Source: Halomarina oriensis
GTDB lineage: Archaea; Halobacteriota; Halobacteria; Halobacteriales; Haloarculaceae
Direction of reading: 5' to 3'
DNA: 57,198 nt
Assembly: GCF_009791395.1 (NCBI RefSeq)
Contig: NZ_WSZK01000035.1
Span: 1 to 57,198 of the forward strand
Of the stretch, positions 5,060-13,732 are shown piece after piece. Both the position numbers and the translations under genes were made by a program. Positions within the stretch are counted from its first letter, which is position 1; every line of letters starts with the position of its first letter. The notes beneath the pieces were generated by a model that saw only the letters and a list, made by a program, of their open reading frames with translations, made no database searches and had not been told where the DNA came from.

Positions 5060-5986
5060 GTGAAAGGACGCTTGATGACGAGGCGGCGGTTGCTGATTCA
5101 GAGCGTCGCAGCCGCCGGCACATTCGGTGCCGGCCGGGCCGCGACGGCTGCGGCCGGCAGTGACGACGAGCGACGGGAGGTGCGTGTCACCGGGGCCATC
5201 TCCGACGACGAGGTCTGTCGACTGCCCCGCTCTGTCACGTCGTCGCTGGGAGTCGTCGCCGGTCAGCAGGTCCGCCTCCGCCACGAGGACGGGCCGGCGG
5301 TGTTCACCGTCGTCCCGACCGACGAGGCGGTGGGAGCGGTGGGCACCGGTGGCCGCGACCGACTCGGCGCGACTGGTGACGCGTTCGACGTCGAGGTGAG
5401 CACACGAGTCGTCCACCCGACCAGAGACGAGGCGACGGCGGCCGACACCGGCGGGTTCGTCGAGCGACTCGTCGACGCCGACGACGAACGCCTGGTCGTG
5501 CTCGCTCCACACGGCGGCTACATCGAGTACGGGACCGACGAACAGGCCACCCACGTCGGCGAACGACTCGACGTGCCGGTGTGGTACTGCGCCGGGTGGT
5601 GGCCCGGCGGCGGTGCGTTCGACCGGTGGCACGTCGGGTCGACGGACATCCACCCGGCGTCGTTCCCCCGACTCGCCGAGGTGTCGAACCGGTCGTTCGA
5701 CGCGGTGGTCGGCTTCCACGGGTGGGGTGAGGACCACGTCGCCGTCGGCGGAGCCGCCCCGCTCGACCGGAGGCGGACGGTCCGTGACACCATCGCGGCG
5801 GCCGTCGGAGACGCGTTCGACGTACGACTGGCAAGCGACGAGAGCCGCGACGGCGACCACCCGGACAACGTCGTCAACTGGCTGAGTGCCTCCGGTCGGG
5901 ACGGGGTGCAGATAGAACAGCCGTGGGACGCGCGCCGCGAGTACGGCCGGACCATCGCCGACGCCGTGGCCGACGTGTTCGAGTGA
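5060..5986 (+). CDS. Secreted poly-gamma-glutamate hydrolase family protein (copy 1)
   Basis: 308 aa from GTG 5060 (a TTAAGT box about 28 nt upstream supports it); ATG 5075 is the alternative. Residues 8-12 RRRLL begin a Tat-type signal followed by an Ala/Gly-rich stretch, so export is expected. The core has LAPHGGYIEYGTDEQA (149-162), WHVGSTDIHPASFPRL (190-205) and VVGFHGW (216-222). These correspond to the zinc-site blocks of the phage/Bacillus PghP PGA-hydrolase family. Residues about 40-125 form a separate N-terminal module shared with copy 2. It sits beside pgsB and pgsC homologues, which supports a role in trimming or releasing PGA. Activity itself is inferred. Confidence 0.85.
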   Translation: MKGRLMTRRRLLIQSVAAAGTFGAGRAATAAAGSDDERREVRVTGAISDDEVCRLPRSVTSSLGVVAGQQVRLRHEDGPAVFTVVPTDEAVGAVGTGGRDRLGATGDAFDVEVSTRVVHPTRDEATAADTGGFVERLVDADDERLVVLAPHGGYIEYGTDEQATHVGERLDVPVWYCAGWWPGGGAFDRWHVGSTDIHPASFPRLAEVSNRSFDAVVGFHGWGEDHVAVGGAAPLDRRRTVRDTIAAAVGDAFDVRLASDESRDGDHPDNVVNWLSASGRDGVQIEQPWDARREYGRTIADAVADVFE

Positions 5987-6011
5987 CGGCTGGGCCCTCG
6001 CAGTCGGTGTC

Positions 6012-6380
6012 GTGACCGGCGTCTCGGGGTGCAACGCGTCGAACACCTCGGGGACGACCACGACGAACGGCGAATCGACGGCGAGGAGTGAGACGACCAG
6101 CGAACCCGATGGGGCGTCGTCGCGTATCGACGGCCAGGTGTTCGACCTGTCGAACGAAGCCGTCCCCGGGGCGACGGTCGAGGCTATCGTCCCGAGCACT
6201 GGAGTCGTCGACCGAACGACCGCCGACGAAGCGGACCGGTTCGAACTCGCCACGACCGACGAAGCTGCGGAAGGTGGTCGGGAGTACGACCACATCCGGC
6301 TCGGTGGCCCCGCGACGGTGGAGTTCGAGACGAACGAGGCGTCGCCGGACGGCGTCGTGTGGTCCAGAACAGGGACCTGA
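6012..6380 (+). CDS. Short lipoprotein-like protein with carboxypeptidase-regulatory-like domain
   Basis: 122 aa from GTG 6012. The N-terminus reads VTGVSGCNASNTSG, which looks like the end of a lipoprotein signal peptide with its lipobox Cys. The in-frame codons just upstream (ALAVGV) are also hydrophobic but offer no start codon. After a Thr/Ser linker, SRIDGQVFDLSNEAVPGATVEA and a D-R-F-E-L-A-T turn resemble the beta-sandwich carboxypeptidase regulatory domain (G-x-V-x-D-x-x-x-x-P-x-P-G-A-x-V). The domain seems short at its C-end. It may be a decayed lipoprotein gene or a real small surface protein, cotranscribed with the PGA hydrolase 25 nt upstream. Confidence 0.5.
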   Translation: MTGVSGCNASNTSGTTTTNGESTARSETTSEPDGASSRIDGQVFDLSNEAVPGATVEAIVPSTGVVDRTTADEADRFELATTDEAAEGGREYDHIRLGGPATVEFETNEASPDGVVWSRTGT

Positions 6381-6387
6381 AGCCGAA

Positions 6388-7551
6388 TCAGGTCCGACGG
6401 TTCAGCGCGTCGGCGACGGCGTCGGCGACGGCGTCGCCGTGCTCGTCGCGGACGGACTTCGGCTGGCCGACCCAGATGCCGTCGTCGTCGGTGAGTTCGT
6501 TGATGAGGACGTCCTCGTCGGTCGCCGCGTACCGTCCCTCCGCGAGGACGGGCGTGGGCATGCTGTCGGGCAGGACGCCAGCGATGGCGTCACGGACCGC
6601 CTCACGCGTCTCCTCGGAGGCGTTGCCGCCGACACGGACGCGAGCGGTGCAGGTGCCGTGGAAGCTCACGCCGAACCGGAACGTGTGGTCGGTGATGGAC
6701 GCGAGTTTCGGGAACGACGCGGGCGAGAGCTGCGTCGAGGGGACGTGCCAGCGGACGAACGCGCCGCCGCCGTCGCGGAAGCCGTACGTACGCCAGGTGG
6801 TCACGGGCGGGTCGTAGCTGGCGGCGAAGCGCTCGGCCTGTTCCGCGGTGCCGGCTTCGACGTCACCGCCGTGTGGTGCGAGGGCGACGACCAGCGAGCG
6901 CTCGTCGTAGTCGAGGACCTCGACGAGTTCGTCGTTCTCGCGGGCCTCCTCGACGGTCATGTCGGGAGCCGGGAGGACGGGGTCGACGACGGCGTCGAAC
7001 GACTCGTCGGCGAGCGAGCAGCCGCCCTCGTAGGTGGGACAGCCCTGCTGTTTGTCGCCGGTGTTCTCCCAGTTCAGTTCGTCGAGCGCGAGGCGGCAGC
7101 GAGCGCGACGGTCGATGCGGACGGTGTCGTCGGCACGCTCCTGTCGCGCTCCGGCGACGGTGTAGGCGGCGTACTCGTCGTCGGTGCGACGGACGCGGAC
7201 CTGCTGACCGGGGGCGACACCGAGCGCGTCGAGCAACGCGGGGTCGGCCGTGAGTTCGGTGAACGACTCCGCGAGCGAGTCGGGGCCGCTACCGCCGGGG
7301 AAGTCGACGGTGACCGAGGCGGTGTCGCGGCCGTCGGCCTCGGTGTCCTGCTGGACGACGGTCGAGAGCGCCGACGAACGGGCGTTCGCCTCGACGGCAC
7401 CGACACCGAGTCCGAGGAGCGCCGGTGAGGCGAGTCCCGCGGCGAGGAACGCACGCCGCGAGGTACCGTCCGTGGCCTCGGTGCTGTCGGTCGAGTCGTC
7501 CGCTGAGTGGTCGGAAGTCGGTTCGTCGGGTCGATGTGTATCGTCTGTCAT
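6388..7551 (-). CDS. Secreted poly-gamma-glutamate hydrolase family protein (copy 2)
   Basis: 387 aa. After an acidic Ser/Thr/Asp leader, TSRRAFLAAGLASPALLGLG is a clear Tat signal. The family blocks match copy 1: ALAPHGGDVEAGTAEQAE, RWHVPSTQLSPASFPKLA and GVSFHGTC. The N-terminal module (DALGVAPGQQVRVRRTDDEYAAYTV) is also shared. Compared with copy 1 there is an insertion with two Cys (residues around CRLALDELNWENTGDKQQGCPTYEGGC, quoted only as a Cys-bearing stretch), possibly a disulfide loop. It is the last gene of the pgsC-pgsB-hydrolase unit and ends 8 nt from the convergent lipoprotein-like ORF. Confidence 0.87.
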   Translation of the reverse strand: MTDDTHRPDEPTSDHSADDSTDSTEATDGTSRRAFLAAGLASPALLGLGVGAVEANARSSALSTVVQQDTEADGRDTASVTVDFPGGSGPDSLAESFTELTADPALLDALGVAPGQQVRVRRTDDEYAAYTVAGARQERADDTVRIDRRARCRLALDELNWENTGDKQQGCPTYEGGCSLADESFDAVVDPVLPAPDMTVEEARENDELVEVLDYDERSLVVALAPHGGDVEAGTAEQAERFAASYDPPVTTWRTYGFRDGGGAFVRWHVPSTQLSPASFPKLASITDHTFRFGVSFHGTCTARVRVGGNASEETREAVRDAIAGVLPDSMPTPVLAEGRYAATDEDVLINELTDDDGIWVGQPKSVRDEHGDAVADAVADALNRRT

Positions 7552-7572
7552 CGTTGTCTGTGGTTGGGGGGT

Positions 7573-7641
7573 ACTCGGAAACGAGTCGGGAGACGGCGGC
7601 CGGCAACCGTCGACTGCCGGCCGAGGGGCGTTACACCCCTC
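7573..7641. promoter_or_regulatory. Three consecutive hairpins between pgsB and hydrolase copy 2
   Basis: The 138-bp spacer holds three inverted repeats in a row. ACTCG-GAAA-CGAGT lies at 7573-7586. CGGCCGGCA / TGCCGGCCG (9 bp, perfect, 9-nt loop) spans 7597-7623. GAGGGG / CCCCTC (6 bp, 7-nt loop) spans 7623-7641. They lie downstream of the pgsB stop and upstream of the hydrolase start on the minus strand. They could slow or partly stop transcription, or stabilise the upstream mRNA. Confidence 0.6.
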
Positions 7642-7689
7642 CCACCTCCGGGGTCGCTTCGTAGGCGGACCGGCACCGTCGAGCGCCGG

Positions 7690-8880
7690 TCACCGGGTCG
7701 CCTCCACGTTCGACGACGAGGGCTTCGTCGACTCGGCGGCGGCCGCCCGGCGCTCGACTTCGGCCTCCATGCCGCGCATGAAGTCGGCGACGGTGTTGCC
7801 GACGAGGAAGACCGGCCACCCGTCGTCGAGCGCGGCGTCGAGGACCGTCGCCGGGTCGTCGCCGTCGTGGCGGACCACCGGGAACGGCGCACGCCGAGCG
7901 AACCGAGCGGTGTCGTCGCCCGCGACCCGGACCTGCTCGAAGACGCCCTGTTCGTAGCACTCGGAGAGGTACTCCAGGAACGCCGCGGTCCGCCCACGAC
8001 GGTCGCCGCGGATGTAGAACAGGGGCTGTATCGTCCCCGGTCGGTCCGCGGCGAGGGCACGGCGAACGACCTCCGTACTCTCGGTGTCGTTGACCGACGC
8101 GGCGTTGAAGACGTGACCGCCCTCGATAGCCCGCCACTCGACCCGCATCTCGTCGAGGTAGCCTCCGAGTAGCTCCCGCGACAGCGGCTCTTCGCCGACG
8201 GCGTCGAGCACTTCGTTCAGCGCGTAGATGGACTCCGCACCCGGGACGTTGGCGTGCTCGTCGGGAACCGAGACGTGCGAGACGGTCGCACCACGTCGGT
8301 CGAGTTCCGTCTCCAGACACTCCCGCAGGGCCGGCGACTGCTCGCCGTTGACGACGTGCGTGCCGGCCGGGATGGCTCGGGCGAGCGCCCGAGCGATGGC
8401 GAGACGGTCGCCGCCGAGGGTGTCGAGGTGGTCGCGGCGAACGTTCGTCAACACGACCACGTCCGGGTCGACGAACTGCTCGGCGACCATCCGGGTCGTG
8501 TAGTCGGAGATCGCCTGGTTCTCGACGACGAGGACGTCGTCGGGTGGGTTCTCGCGGAGCTCTCGCTCGTTCTCGTACAGCGTGACCCGTTCGCCGCGAG
8601 TGATCGGTCGGCGCTCGTCGCCCCGGAGCATCGCCGGGCGATTGCCGGTTATCTTCGCACCGGTGTCGTAGCCGCGGGCGTCGAACACGTCGTGGAGCCG
8701 TTCGGTCGTCCCCGACTTGCCGCGCGTGCCGGAGACGACGATACGCGTGTCGATGTCGGCGAGGCGTTCGCGGTGGTCGGGACCCCGAGTCACGAACCTC
8801 CGGACCGCGTCGAGGCGCTCGTGTGCCCCCGACAGGAATGGGAGGCGTTCGCCGGCCGCCGAGAAGACCGTCGACAGCAT
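7690..8880 (-). CDS. pgsB: Poly-gamma-glutamate synthase ligase subunit PgsB/CapB-like
   Basis: 396 aa, equal to the usual length of CapB (about 393-400). It is a Mur-ligase-type amide ligase that activates the growing gamma-carboxyl with ATP and adds glutamate. Seen: P-loop VSGTRGKSGTTERL (residues 49-62; CapB-type GTRGK), TGNRPAMLRGDE, VVENQAISDY and VVLTNVRRDHLDTLG (142-156), matching the CapB NVR-x-DH block with the metal-binding His. Its ATG shares bases with the stop of the pgsC-like gene (TGATG), so the two are translationally coupled. Membrane attachment is probably through PgsC. No PgsA gene lies nearby. Confidence 0.9.
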   Translation of the reverse strand: MLSTVFSAAGERLPFLSGAHERLDAVRRFVTRGPDHRERLADIDTRIVVSGTRGKSGTTERLHDVFDARGYDTGAKITGNRPAMLRGDERRPITRGERVTLYENERELRENPPDDVLVVENQAISDYTTRMVAEQFVDPDVVVLTNVRRDHLDTLGGDRLAIARALARAIPAGTHVVNGEQSPALRECLETELDRRGATVSHVSVPDEHANVPGAESIYALNEVLDAVGEEPLSRELLGGYLDEMRVEWRAIEGGHVFNAASVNDTESTEVVRRALAADRPGTIQPLFYIRGDRRGRTAAFLEYLSECYEQGVFEQVRVAGDDTARFARRAPFPVVRHDGDDPATVLDAALDDGWPVFLVGNTVADFMRGMEAEVERRAAAAESTKPSSSNVEATR

Positions 8881-10055
8881 CAGGCGACCCCCTCCGCGGT
8901 GAGTCGGCGGGTGAGCCGACGCCGCTCGCGCTCGAACCGGGTCACGCGGACACCGGCGAGCGCACAGACCGCGACGCCGAGCAGCGACAGGGCGACGGTG
9001 ACGACGAGGCTCTCGGCGAGCATCGTCCCGGAGAGCGGCCGGGCGACCGGCAGCGCGACGGCGAGCGAGACGACGAACAGCGCCGCGGAGAGCAGCGCTC
9101 CCGTCGACCGTTCGGCGGGCGCGAGTCGGTGGAAGTTGTACGCGCCGATGCCGGCGAGGATCGAGAGGAACAGCAGGACGAACCCGCTCACGCCCGGCAG
9201 GAACGCGGCCGCCGGAACCGCCAGCACCACCCCGGCGAGGACGGCGACGGAGAGCAACACCCGACCGTACAGCAGCGTTCGCCGGTTGATGGTCCGGACG
9301 ACGAGGAACACGGCGACGGTACCGACGAGGTACAGCGGGACGACGCTCGGTGACTGGAGCGCGAACAGCGCGAGCAGCGGGGCCGCGATGAGCCCGTTGA
9401 GTCGGACGCCGTAGCGACCGTAGACGGCCTCGGAGACCGCACCGCCGGCGAGGAGGAGCGCGACGGAGGCTCCGAACCCGACCCCCGTCGCGGTGAGTGC
9501 GGGGTCGGCCAGTGCTGCGCCGCGAAGCGTCGCCACGTCGGCCGACGACGCGAACAGCACGGTCGGCGTCAGCCGACCGAGCGTCGCGGCGACCGTCGGG
9601 TTGAGCACGGTCGCTCCGAGGACGAACAGACCGACGAACGCCGAGAGGCTCGCACCGACGTCTTCGATTCGCCGGTCGCGGTCGAGTCGGTGGTAGTTGT
9701 ACGCGGCGACACCGGGGAGAACGCTCCCGAGGAAGACGAGGTGTGCGTACACCGGGTCCGTCCCCGTCAGCACGGAGAGAGCGGCGAGGCCGACGATAGG
9801 GACGACCGCACCGATGGCGATGGCCGAGAGCAACAGGACGCGCCCGTAGAGCATCGTCCGACGTTTCAGGAGCGCCAGTCCGAGATACGCGGCAGCCGTG
9901 CTGACGACCGCCAGCGGGAACGCGTAGAGGTCGTACAGTGAGTAGACCGCGAACAGCGGGACGACGAGCACTCCCGACATCCGTAGCCCACGCGCCTGTG
10001 TGACCACGATACCCATCAGGAGACCGAGCGCGACGAGGAGGGCGGCGACTATCAC
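8880..10055 (-). CDS. pgsC: PgsC/CapC-type membrane protein, tandemly duplicated
   Basis: From the chosen GTG at 10053-10055, 391 aa that are nearly all hydrophobic helices. A classical CapC is about 150 aa; here two units follow each other. RRTMLYGRVLLLS (65-77) recurs as RRTLLYGRVLLSV (258-270), and GVAAYNYHRLDRD (115-127) recurs as GIGAYNFHRLAPA (302-314). The strand GVLVVPLFAVYSL (28-40) recurs as GLIAAPLLALFAL (221-233). These are CapC hallmarks (G-x-(I/V)-VPG-type loop and LYGRR-type motif). The start is uncertain: ATG 10115 or GTG-like positions up to 10232 are open, but the added residues are Arg/Pro-rich. A basic C-tail ends the protein. Confidence 0.85.
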   Translation of the reverse strand: MIVAALLVALGLLMGIVVTQARGLRMSGVLVVPLFAVYSLYDLYAFPLAVVSTAAAYLGLALLKRRTMLYGRVLLLSAIAIGAVVPIVGLAALSVLTGTDPVYAHLVFLGSVLPGVAAYNYHRLDRDRRIEDVGASLSAFVGLFVLGATVLNPTVAATLGRLTPTVLFASSADVATLRGAALADPALTATGVGFGASVALLLAGGAVSEAVYGRYGVRLNGLIAAPLLALFALQSPSVVPLYLVGTVAVFLVVRTINRRTLLYGRVLLSVAVLAGVVLAVPAAAFLPGVSGFVLLFLSILAGIGAYNFHRLAPAERSTGALLSAALFVVSLAVALPVARPLSGTMLAESLVVTVALSLLGVAVCALAGVRVTRFERERRRLTRRLTAEGVA

Positions 10056-10435
10056 GCCCGACCCCCGTCGCGGTGGTGACCCGTTATCGAGGGTGGGTCC
10101 CCGTGGTCGTCCCATCGATGCACCGAGACGGGGGGTCCGCCCTGGACTCCCCCTCCTACCGTCGTTGACGCCTCTGACACGGCCGTGGCGACTCGTGGAT
10201 GCATCTTTGTTATCCGTGGGGGCCGGCCTCACAGGGTGCGTCGTAACTCCGATAACAGTCGCGTTACGGACGGTTTCGAGACTCGTACACTCCGTCCTCG
10301 GAGAACGTACTTGCCGAGTGAAAAGACGGAGAAACGGTCGGTCGAAACCGTTTCGCGGCGAAAAGGCCCTGCTTTCGGCCGACGGATCCCACCGACCGCA
10401 CGCGGTTTTTTATCCCCGGACGGGGTTGACGAGGT
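10056..10435. promoter_or_regulatory. Divergent control region between pgsC and the GlcD-GlcF fusion gene
   Basis: 380 bp without a convincing gene. It contains a perfect 10-nt inverted repeat, ACGGTTTCGA (10270-10279) and TCGAAACCGT (10342-10351). A second inverted pair, GAAACGGT (10331-10338) and ACCGTTTC (10347-10354), overlaps it. A TATA-like TTTTTTATC at 10406-10414 sits 26 nt before the plus-strand ATG 10436. Minus-strand TTATC sequences near 10200-10260 could serve the pgs operon, which would then have a leader of over 100 nt. The repeats are candidate operators for either direction. Confidence 0.5.
10406..10414 (+). promoter_or_regulatory. TATA-like box for the GlcD-GlcF fusion gene
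   Basis: TTTTTTATC is centred 26 nt before ATG 10436, the spacing expected if transcription starts at or next to the start codon. Confidence 0.5.
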
Positions 10436-13400
10436 ATGGCACTCGGGGAGCGCTCGGGGGACCCGGCCGAGGACCCACGAGCGACGTACGACTACGAGAT
10501 GGGCGACGTGGCCCGTCCGGGACTCGTCGAGGACCTCGAATCGCTCGTCGAGGGTGACGTCCGGTTCGACGACTACTCGCGGGCGCTCTACGCGACGGAC
10601 GCCAGCGCCTACGAGCAGGTGCCCATCGGCGTCGTCTTCCCGACCAGCACCGAGGACGTGGCGGCGACGATGCGCTACTGCGCGAACCGGAAGATTCCGG
10701 TCTTGCCGCGTGGCGGCGGGACGAGTCTCGCCGGGCAGACGGTCAACCGCGCCGTCGTCCTCGACTTCACGCGACACATGGACGCGGTGACGGACGTCAG
10801 TCCCGGTCGGCGCAGAGCGACCGCGCAGGCCGGCGCGATTCTCGGCGAACTCAATCGAGAACTGGCCGACCACGACCTGAAGTTCGCGCCGGACCCAGCG
10901 TGGGCCGACAAGTCCGCCATCGGCGGTGCGGTTGGGAACAACTCGACGGGCGCACACTCGCTGGTCTACGGCAAGACCGACGCCTACGTCGAGTCCTGTG
11001 AGGTGGTGCTCGCCGACGGGCACGTGACCCGATTCGGCGAGATATCGGTCGAGGAGTTGCGCGAGAAGGCCGACCCCGACAGCGCAGCGTGGGGCGACGG
11101 TCCCGACAGTCCGCTCCTGCCGCGCATCTACGCCGAAGTGGTTCGGATTCTGGACGAGGAGGCCGACGAGATAGAGCGACGATACCCCGACCTCAAACGC
11201 AACGTCTCGGGGTACAACCTCGACGTGTTGGTCGAGGAGGCCCACGAGACGGACAGCATCAACCTCGCTCGACTCATGGCCGGGAGCGAGGGGACGCTGG
11301 CCATCGTCACGGAGGTGACCGTCTCGCTCGAACTCGTCCCCGAAACGAAGGCCGTCGCGTTGCTCACCTACGACTCGCTGCTGGACGCGCTGTCGGACGT
11401 CGCGGCCATCCTCGAACACGACCCGGCGGCCGTCGAGGTGATGGACGACGTGTTGCTCGACCTGGCCCGCGAGACGCCGGAGTTCGCGGACGTCGTCGGG
11501 CTGCTCCCCGACGGGACGGACTCGGTGTTGCTCGTCGAGTTCTACGCCGACGGCGACGCCGAGGGCGAGCAGTTCGTCGCGGACCTCGTCGCCGACCGGG
11601 TGGGCGACGTGGCGACGGTCACGGACCCGAGCGAGGGCGCGACCGAGACGACGGGAGGCGAGCGGTACGCCAGCGCGGCGCTGGAGGCTCACGACGCCGA
11701 GCAGCGAGCCCAGTTCTGGAAGATGCGCAAGTCGGGGCTTCCCATCCTGCTCTCGCGGACGAGCGACGAGAAACACGCCTCGTTCATCGAGGACACCGCG
11801 ATTCCGGCGGAGAACCTCCCCGCCTACGTCGAGGAGTTCGAGGAAGTGCTGGAGGCCGAGGGGACGTTCGCCTCCTACTACGCCCACGCCGGCCCCGGCG
11901 TCCTCCACATCCGGCCGCTGGTCAACACGAAGACCGAACGCGGCCTCGAATCGTTCTACGCCATCTCCGACGCCGTCACGGAGCTCGTCGTCAAGTACGG
12001 CGGGTCGGTGTCGGGCGAACACGGCGACGGACGCGCTCGCACCCAGTGGAACCGCCGACTCTACGGCGACCGACTCTGGCGGGCGTTCGGCGAACTGAAG
12101 ACGGCGTTCGACCCCGAGTGGCTGCTCAATCCGGGCACCGTCTGTGGCCGGGACGACGCGGATGCGTCGTCGGCTCACGGCTCCGCCGTGGAGAGCCACG
12201 ACATGCGCCGCCACCTCCGGTTCGACCCGGAGTACGTCTACGAGGCCGGCTTCGAGCCGACGCTGAACTGGGACGAGGAGAACGGGATGCAGGGGATGGT
12301 CGAACTCTGTCACGGCTGTGGGGGCTGTCGGGGCTCTCAGGAGACGACGGGCGGCGTGATGTGTCCGACCTACCGCGCGATGGACGAGGAGGCGCTGTCG
12401 ACCCGTGGGCGGGCGAACGCGCTCCGGAGCGCGATGAGCGGTACGCTCCCGGAGGACCCCGCCAGCGACGAGTTCGTCGAGGAGGTGATGGACCTCTGTA
12501 TCGGCTGCAAGGGCTGTGCGAAAGACTGCCCGAGCGGCGTCGACATGGCGAAGCTCAAAGCCGAGGTGGAGTACGAGTACCGCCAGCGCAACGGGAGCAG
12601 TCTCCGGGACCGCCTGTTCGCCAACGTCGACGGCGTCAACCGACTCGGGTCGGCGTTCGCGCCGCTGGCGAACGCGCTGACGCGTCTGCCGGGGGTGAGC
12701 CGACTCCAGGAGTCGCTGTTCGGCATCGCCAGCGAGCGTGACCTCCCGGGGTTCGCCACGGAGTCGTTCGAGGACTGGTGTTCGAAACGGACCCCGACCG
12801 TCACGCCCGAAGCGGCCCACCGGAAGGTGCTGCTGTTCCCCGACACCTACACGAACTACAACCGGCCGGCCGCCGGGAAAGCCGCCGTCGAGGTGCTCGA
12901 AGCGGCCGGCGTCTACGTGCAGGTACCCGACGTCGGCCCGAGCGGACGGGCCGCCCACTCGAAGGGGATGCTGGGCCTCGCCCGCGAACGGGCACAGTCG
13001 GTCGTCGACGACCTCGCGCCACGAATCCGGGAGGGCTGGGACGTCGTCGTCCTCGAACCGTCGGACGCGGTGATGCTCCAGCACGACTACCTCGACCTGC
13101 TGAGCGGGCCGGACGTCGAACACCTCGCGGAGAACGTCTACGGCTTCTCGGAGTACGTCGACGTCCACCGTCTCGGCGAACGCCTCCCCCTGTCGGGGAC
13201 GGGCCGACTGACCTACCACGGCCACTGTCACCAGAAGTCGACGCTGAAAGACCACCACGCCGTCGGCGTCCTGCGACGGGCGGGCTACGAGGTCGACCCG
13301 CTCGACTCCGGGTGCTGTGGGATGGCCGGCAGTTTCGGCTACGAGGCCGAACACTACTCGATGAGTCGCGCCATCGGCGACGTCCTCGTCGAACAGGTCG

Positions 13401-13732
13401 AGGGCGCGGACGGTGACCGGACCGTCACACCGGGCGCGTCCTGTCGGTCACAACTGGAGTCGTTCGAGGATCACCCCGAACACCCAGCCGAACTGCTCCG
13501 GGAGGCGATGGCGATGTGGGAACGCGGCCAGGACACGCCGCGGCCGGAGGGCGTGGACGTGGTCCGAACGCGCGAGTCGTCGAGCGGCGGACCCGTCGAC
13601 GAGGATACCGGACCCGAACCGCCACGGCAAGCAGGGGAGTGGGTCGACGTGATTCGGACCGACGACGGCGACACCGACCGGGAGCGTCGACCGACGACCG
13701 ACGACCCGGCGGAACGGACCGACGACGAGTGA
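10436..13732 (+). CDS. GlcD-GlcF fusion: FAD-linked and Fe-S dehydrogenase (D-lactate/glycolate type)
   Basis: 1098 aa, a fusion typical of haloarchaea. Residues about 55-230 are the FAD_binding_4 domain (LPRGGGTSLAGQTVN, GAVGNNSTGAHS). Residues about 270-560 are the FAD-oxidase C domain (GTLAIVTEVTV, GEHGDGRARTQW). Two cysteine clusters for 4Fe-4S centres follow: CHGCGGC with a later C-P (about 623) and CIGCKGCAKDCP (about 687). The C-terminal part is the CCG domain (HCHQKSTL about 928, GCCGMAGSFGYE about 959). It should oxidise a 2-hydroxyacid at the membrane or in the cytosol and pass electrons to the respiratory chain; the exact substrate is not determined. The last about 80 residues are an acidic tail with a repeated VDV(V/I)RT motif. 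Confidence 0.92.
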   Translation: MALGERSGDPAEDPRATYDYEMGDVARPGLVEDLESLVEGDVRFDDYSRALYATDASAYEQVPIGVVFPTSTEDVAATMRYCANRKIPVLPRGGGTSLAGQTVNRAVVLDFTRHMDAVTDVSPGRRRATAQAGAILGELNRELADHDLKFAPDPAWADKSAIGGAVGNNSTGAHSLVYGKTDAYVESCEVVLADGHVTRFGEISVEELREKADPDSAAWGDGPDSPLLPRIYAEVVRILDEEADEIERRYPDLKRNVSGYNLDVLVEEAHETDSINLARLMAGSEGTLAIVTEVTVSLELVPETKAVALLTYDSLLDALSDVAAILEHDPAAVEVMDDVLLDLARETPEFADVVGLLPDGTDSVLLVEFYADGDAEGEQFVADLVADRVGDVATVTDPSEGATETTGGERYASAALEAHDAEQRAQFWKMRKSGLPILLSRTSDEKHASFIEDTAIPAENLPAYVEEFEEVLEAEGTFASYYAHAGPGVLHIRPLVNTKTERGLESFYAISDAVTELVVKYGGSVSGEHGDGRARTQWNRRLYGDRLWRAFGELKTAFDPEWLLNPGTVCGRDDADASSAHGSAVESHDMRRHLRFDPEYVYEAGFEPTLNWDEENGMQGMVELCHGCGGCRGSQETTGGVMCPTYRAMDEEALSTRGRANALRSAMSGTLPEDPASDEFVEEVMDLCIGCKGCAKDCPSGVDMAKLKAEVEYEYRQRNGSSLRDRLFANVDGVNRLGSAFAPLANALTRLPGVSRLQESLFGIASERDLPGFATESFEDWCSKRTPTVTPEAAHRKVLLFPDTYTNYNRPAAGKAAVEVLEAAGVYVQVPDVGPSGRAAHSKGMLGLARERAQSVVDDLAPRIREGWDVVVLEPSDAVMLQHDYLDLLSGPDVEHLAENVYGFSEYVDVHRLGERLPLSGTGRLTYHGHCHQKSTLKDHHAVGVLRRAGYEVDPLDSGCCGMAGSFGYEAEHYSMSRAIGDVLVEQVEGADGDRTVTPGASCRSQLESFEDHPEHPAELLREAMAMWERGQDTPRPEGVDVVRTRESSSGGPVDEDTGPEPPRQAGEWVDVIRTDDGDTDRERRPTTDDPAERTDDE

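Follow-up and report, generated by a model that had tools for sequence, protein, structure and literature searches.

Results

The window, that is the whole stretch of DNA analysed here, is the 57,198-nucleotide contig C29 (NZ_WSZK01000035.1) of the draft genome of Halomarina oriensis (4.07 Mb in 50 contigs, 99.63% complete). It harbors a poly-gamma-glutamate (PGA) synthase/hydrolase locus that has no intact PgsA, neither here nor elsewhere in the genome. Read along the direction of pgsC, three genes are followed by a relic and a gene on the opposite strand (C> B> H2> <relic <H1). The first gene, pgsC (capC; 8880..10055, minus strand), starts with GTG and encodes a fused tandem double protein of 391 amino acids, identified by means of PF14102 and an alignment with its relatives. 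The second gene, pgsB (capB; 7690..8880, minus strand), encodes a Mur-ligase-family poly-gamma-glutamate ligase of 396 amino acids (TIGR04012, PF08245 and comparison with 18 haloarchaeal PgsB proteins). H2, the third operon gene (6388..7551, minus strand), encodes a Tat-exported PF05908 pseudo-hydrolase of 387 amino acids, annotated using PF05908 and an AlphaFold2 model. Next comes the pgsA relic (5997..6380, plus strand), which was recognized with a PgsA profile and by reading the DNA, and which joins the ends of a PgsA lipoprotein of about 706 amino acids. H1 (5060..5986, plus strand) encodes a Tat-exported PF05908 poly-gamma-glutamate hydrolase of 308 amino acids, assigned by PF05908 and its active-site residues.

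Much of this layout had been described in an earlier note made from the letters of the sequence. Its CapB-type ligase with the motifs GTRGKSGT and NVRRDHLDTLG is PgsB, its CapC-like protein is indeed coupled to the ligase by TGATG, where the pgsC stop is overlapped by the pgsB start, and the two Tat-signal proteins of the PGA-hydrolase family that it saw facing each other both belong to PF05908, carry twin-arginine signals and are encoded convergently. The locus is flanked at 10436-13732 by a gene for a fused FAD-linked oxidase/Fe-S/CCG protein of 1098 amino acids, which is kept in congeners that have no pgs genes there.

The ligase PgsB is 44-57% identical to the 18 haloarchaeal PgsB proteins, and it keeps every residue that is invariant among all 19, including G51, R53, G54, K55 and S56 of the P-loop as well as D150 and H151. 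Its match to the Mur-ligase middle domain PF08245 (31.8 bits) lies over the cut-off and the ATP-binding G-x-RGKS motif is present; the score against the equivalog model TIGR04012 (91.3 bits) lies below the cut-off of 222.7. Its solved relatives are general Mur/FolC ligases only. The picture for PgsC is similar, with 28.2 bits against the equivalog model TIGR04011 (cut-off 96.45) and 111.3 bits against PF14102 (cut-off 27) in two domain copies. The two halves of PgsC align with 33% identity over 138 positions (hhalign probability 99.7%), which identifies the protein as two PgsC units fused in tandem. Its AlphaFold2 model reaches a pLDDT of 87; comparison with solved structures gave no sequence match, and the best fold match (E 0.12) was not significant. 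A pgsC start at 10232 was rejected as too far upstream, all relatives beginning at the residue of GTG 10055 (MIVAALL...).

A survey of 2015 stated that PgsC is not found in archaea (PMC4497714). PgsC does occur in archaea, and the tandem fusion marks the haloarchaeal type: the double form is present in nearly all haloarchaeal loci examined and also in Methanosarcinaceae (L111, L118), and the Bathyarchaeota and Methanomicrobiaceae loci have a single PgsC. The single-unit PgsC beside PgsB in bins of the latter two groups (L121, L127, L128, L129) could serve as an outgroup to the tandem-fused form. The double PgsC is thus the haloarchaeal norm and not peculiar to the window. The idea that the doubling makes PgsA unnecessary, i.e. 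is a specific compensation for its absence, is ruled out by double PgsC proteins in loci with an adjacent intact pgsA (L052, L054, L062, L064-L066).

A second locus with a double pgsC and a pgsB is located on contig C12 of the same genome (L031:5295-8128). Its PgsB comprises 555 amino acids, with an N-terminal extension of about 150 amino acids that bears a repeated FEVYxxxxGWxWRL-like motif; it falls in a different clade and is not accompanied by H1 or H2. In the other clade, a conserved protein of 126-145 amino acids (family f5) is encoded directly 5' of pgsC (L043, L035, L036, L048, L067, L068).

For H1 and H2, active-site positions were set by profile alignment to the solved PGA hydrolases 3a9l and 5onj. 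In PghP/PghL, the zinc ligands are H40, E45 and H103, the catalytic residue is E165, and H78, T80, S81 and R171 hold the substrate, roles that rest on PghL mutants and on a complex with PGA (PMC6506827). H1 (48 bits against PF05908, cut-off 22) has H40, E45, H78, S81, H103, E165 and R171, with Gly at position 80. This position is variable in H1 proteins, and the zinc ligands, H78, S81, E165 and R171 are kept in 13 of 13 loci. H2 (31.8 bits, same cut-off) keeps H40, E45, H103 and Arg171, with Glu165 changed to Gly and Thr80 to Pro. Across all 24 alignable H2 proteins, a count that leaves out one fragment that does not align (the second frame of L075), position 165 is Gly, Ser or Ala and Arg171 is always kept; Pro replaces T80 in 23 and Gln replaces E45 in 18 of them. 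The earlier note's claim of two hydrolases is consequently not supported, H2 lacking the catalytic Glu of the family.

The AlphaFold2 model of H2 (mean pLDDT 78.7, above 90 in the catalytic domain) matches the PGA hydrolases 21dc, 3a9l and 5onj and thus shows the PGA-hydrolase fold. An additional N-terminal domain (model residues 75-160, at about 7072-7329; listed under 6460-6620) resembles a double-psi beta-barrel, with likeness to the p97 N domain and designed DPBB proteins, which is unusual in a PGA hydrolase. In all loci that have H2, the gene adjoins pgsB in the same direction, so H2 is a retained operon member rather than debris. Judged from its residues, H2 is most likely an exported polymer-binding protein. 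In some H2 proteins, that of the window among them, all three zinc ligands are conserved, and a different catalytic mode may therefore exist. A conserved pseudo-hydrolase still able to grip its substrate would offer a PGA-binding protein of natural origin.

The earlier note reported PgsA as missing from the locus and its flanks, and a check of the whole genome bears this out: none of the 50 contigs yields a match to PF09587 (PgsA), and with a profile of full-length haloarchaeal PgsA (11 sequences) the relic is the sole match in the genome, without the core. A PgsA encoded elsewhere in the genome is thereby ruled out. A PgsA substitute outside PF09587, encoded at some other place, could be imagined, the metallophosphatase group of which PgsA is a member being large. 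We regard this as quite improbable, however, given that neither PF09587 nor the haloarchaeal profile finds a core and that no substitute is needed in B. subtilis.

The haloarchaeal PgsA family (about 706 amino acids) consists of a lipobox, a CarboxypepD_reg domain, the PGA_cap domain and a C-terminal region. The 122-codon ORF at 6012-6380 matches its profile at positions 14-90 and 670-705 only. The score of this two-part match is 45.4 bits, compared to a best value of 0.7 in 2000 shuffles, and the ORF matches intact pgsA genes of other genomes in the same two-part way. About 580 codons are gone at a junction near 6255-6260; PGA_cap is missing and CarboxypepD_reg is broken off at profile position 43 of 82. 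The twin-arginine head of the signal peptide is also lost, the H1 stop codon lying 10 bases 5' of the surviving hydrophobic stretch, and the only start available to the ORF, GTG 6012, lies inside the former signal. With its two PgsA ends fused, some 580 codons and the signal head gone and this sole start left, the ORF is a pseudogene; by its sequence, it is what remains of a pgsA after truncation and an internal deletion. The earlier note had taken the same ORF for a lipoprotein-like surface partner, which does not fit a remnant of PgsA that has no signal peptide. A stand-alone CarboxypepD_reg lipoprotein was rejected likewise, because the domain is broken mid-way and fused to the PgsA C-terminal tail.

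An assembly collapse could in principle have removed the middle of an intact pgsA, as the genome is a draft of 50 contigs and the joined frame is free of stop codons. Such an artefact is nevertheless highly improbable: the 5' signal head has also been lost, with a clean break at the H1 stop, which would require a second independent error, and the PgsA core is found on no contig. Another genome (G002, L141:7555-8235) holds an independent pgsA relic, frameshifted and internally deleted, in which profile positions 3-143 are joined to 644-704; its deletion differs from that of the window relic, and no pgsB or pgsC lies within 16 kb.

Among 242 halobacterial genomes, PgsC was found in 59 and PgsB in 61. 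PgsA is often absent in haloarchaea, PF09587 being wholly missing from 20 of the 59 PgsC-bearing genomes. The loci compared came from two overlapping collections, from which known duplicates were taken out by hand. In Halalkalicoccus (L052, L053, L071) an intact pgsA of 731-740 codons occupies the place and orientation of the relic (C> B> H2> <A). In L054, whose PgsB is the sister of the window PgsB (FastTree, support 0.69), an intact pgsA is located upstream of pgsC. The earlier note had named, beforehand, a pgsA adjacent in related genomes as a finding that would speak against its proposal, and such genes are present in L052, L053 and L054. An adjacent pgsA accompanies 3 of the 24 H2 loci and 10 of the 63 other loci; these counts show no clear pattern, and H2 and PgsA as mutually exclusive alternatives were dismissed. 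Loss of PgsA also occurs in loci that do not have H2, which keeps the idea that H2 replaced PgsA at the level of a hypothesis.

Parts of this record would suit a locus in decay, in which pgsA has been lost, pgsC, pgsB and H2 are on their way out and no polymer is made, with the C12 locus possibly carrying the function. The pgsA in the window is a relic, the relative G002 has its own relic without a nearby pgsB or pgsC, three congeners have the same neighbour gene with no pgs cassette next to it, and a second pgsC-pgsB pair exists in the genome itself. In contrast, pgsC, pgsB, H1 and H2 are intact full-length frames, all conserved PgsB residues are present, and a PgsA-less set is kept and used in the producer Natrialba aegyptia. 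We therefore consider decay unlikely.

The draft genome of N. aegyptia DSM 13077, which we take to be the type strain described as the producer, contains two pgsC-pgsB loci (L076, L080), both with a double PgsC. It yields no match to PF09587, and the full PgsA profile gives signal-like matches only, without a core. N. aegyptia is a reported producer of poly-gamma-L-glutamate of more than 1000 kDa, without any enzyme supplying D-glutamate (PMC3815933). The glutamate racemase model TIGR00067 has no match here either. B. subtilis with plasmid-borne pgsBC and no pgsA produced 26 g/L PGA with about 95% L-glutamate, compared to 75% D in the presence of pgsA (PMC6029982); other, earlier studies, as cited in that paper, found pgsA necessary in B. 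subtilis. The premise of the earlier note that PGA systems need CapA/PgsA is contradicted by this B. subtilis yield and by an N. aegyptia without PF09587. Because a proven archaeal producer also has no PgsA, poly-gamma-glutamate can, by this comparison, probably be made naturally without it.

Discussion

Taken together, N. aegyptia and the B. subtilis pgsBC strain make PgsA-independent synthesis of an L-polymer the simplest reading here. We put a probability of roughly 0.6 on the window holding a PgsA-independent haloarchaeal poly-gamma-L-glutamate locus that lost pgsA by deletion, with H2 as binder and H1 as trimmer. Observed are the gene content and order, the structure of the relic, the residue losses and a lack of PgsA both here and in the N. 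aegyptia genome; production of a polymer by this organism, its all-L composition and the function of H2 we infer. In the proposed mechanism, PgsB would act in the cytoplasm as an ATP-dependent amide ligase, adding L-glutamate via its gamma-carboxyl onto the growing chain. The tandem-fused PgsC would sit in the membrane, hold PgsB there and let the chain through to the outside. H2, from the same operon, would be sent outside by the Tat route. Having lost the catalytic glutamate but not the arginine that grips polymer carboxylates, it is most likely a surface protein that binds the chain as it emerges, and the task that PgsA performs on the outside in Bacillus may have passed to it. H1 would be the active enzyme, cutting the polymer for trimming, release or recycling, and the ORF at 6012-6380 is a dead pgsA. 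Of the earlier proposal that the locus makes and releases a glutamate polymer with a second hydrolase and the small ORF as partners, the PGA locus without an intact PgsA stands, and the partner role of the small ORF and the pair of hydrolases do not.

The product could also be a conjugate or a cell-surface glycopeptide, similar to glutaminylglycan with its backbone of poly-gamma-L-glutamate or glutamine, rather than free PGA. Synthesis of glutaminylglycan has been proposed for CapB of Halobacteria (PMC11915815), and a short L-polymer is made by Natronococcus occultus (PMC3815933). Yet the cassette contains neither a glycosyltransferase nor an amidotransferase, and partners with a dedicated PGA-hydrolase fold are present, which leaves us with little expectation of such a product. 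Going beyond the PgsA-independent synthesis of free polymer that we prefer, one may speculate that in haloarchaea the dead exported hydrolase H2, third in the operon, replaced PgsA as the outer subunit handling the polymer, that repeated loss of pgsA afterwards left relics such as that of the window, and that the absence of PgsA helps to keep the product all-L. We offer this extension tentatively and rather doubt it as a whole.

For two decades, work on Bacillus strains has left a dispute over the need for PgsA in PGA synthesis and over its contribution to chain export and to the D/L composition. In haloarchaea, systems without PgsA occur naturally, in one case in a proven all-L producer, and close relatives with PgsA exist alongside; this makes the question of PgsA need directly testable.

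Comparison with known systems

The window shares with the Bacillus PgsBCA/CapBCA systems a Mur-type ligase PgsB with G-x-RGKS beside a membrane PgsC, as well as an exported PGA hydrolase. In contrast to the Bacillus order B-C-A, the order here is C-B, PgsC is a fused double, PgsA is a relic, and PgsB and PgsC score below the equivalog cut-offs. For haloarchaea, capC and capB had been named earlier in Haloquadratum walsbyi (PMC1544339); the parts of that paper available to us assume a complete CapBCA and do not discuss a double PgsC or the absence of PgsA. The phage-type PGA hydrolases PghP/PghL (3a9l, 5onj) resemble H1 in fold and active site, and H2 in fold and Arg171. Unlike these enzymes, H1 and H2 are Tat-exported, and H2 has an extra N-terminal domain and no Glu165.

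Similar in gene content are the N. aegyptia loci L076 and L080, which combine a double PgsC with PgsB and have no PgsA; L080 also has the C-B-H2 order and a Glu165 changed to Gly. Among PGA producers, N. aegyptia is the nearest one whose loci are of this type. Unlike the window, neither shows a detectable pgsA relic or an adjoining H1. The engineered PgsA-less B. subtilis makes and exports PGA by means of PgsB and PgsC only, and its product is L-rich, both as predicted for the window; it is a bacterial overexpression system, whereas the window represents a natural loss with a double PgsC and H2 as partner. The locus of Halalkalicoccus paucihalophilus (L071, the same as L052) has the same C> B> H2> arrangement with <A at the place of the relic, but its H1 lies upstream of pgsC and its pgsA is intact, encoding 731 amino acids.
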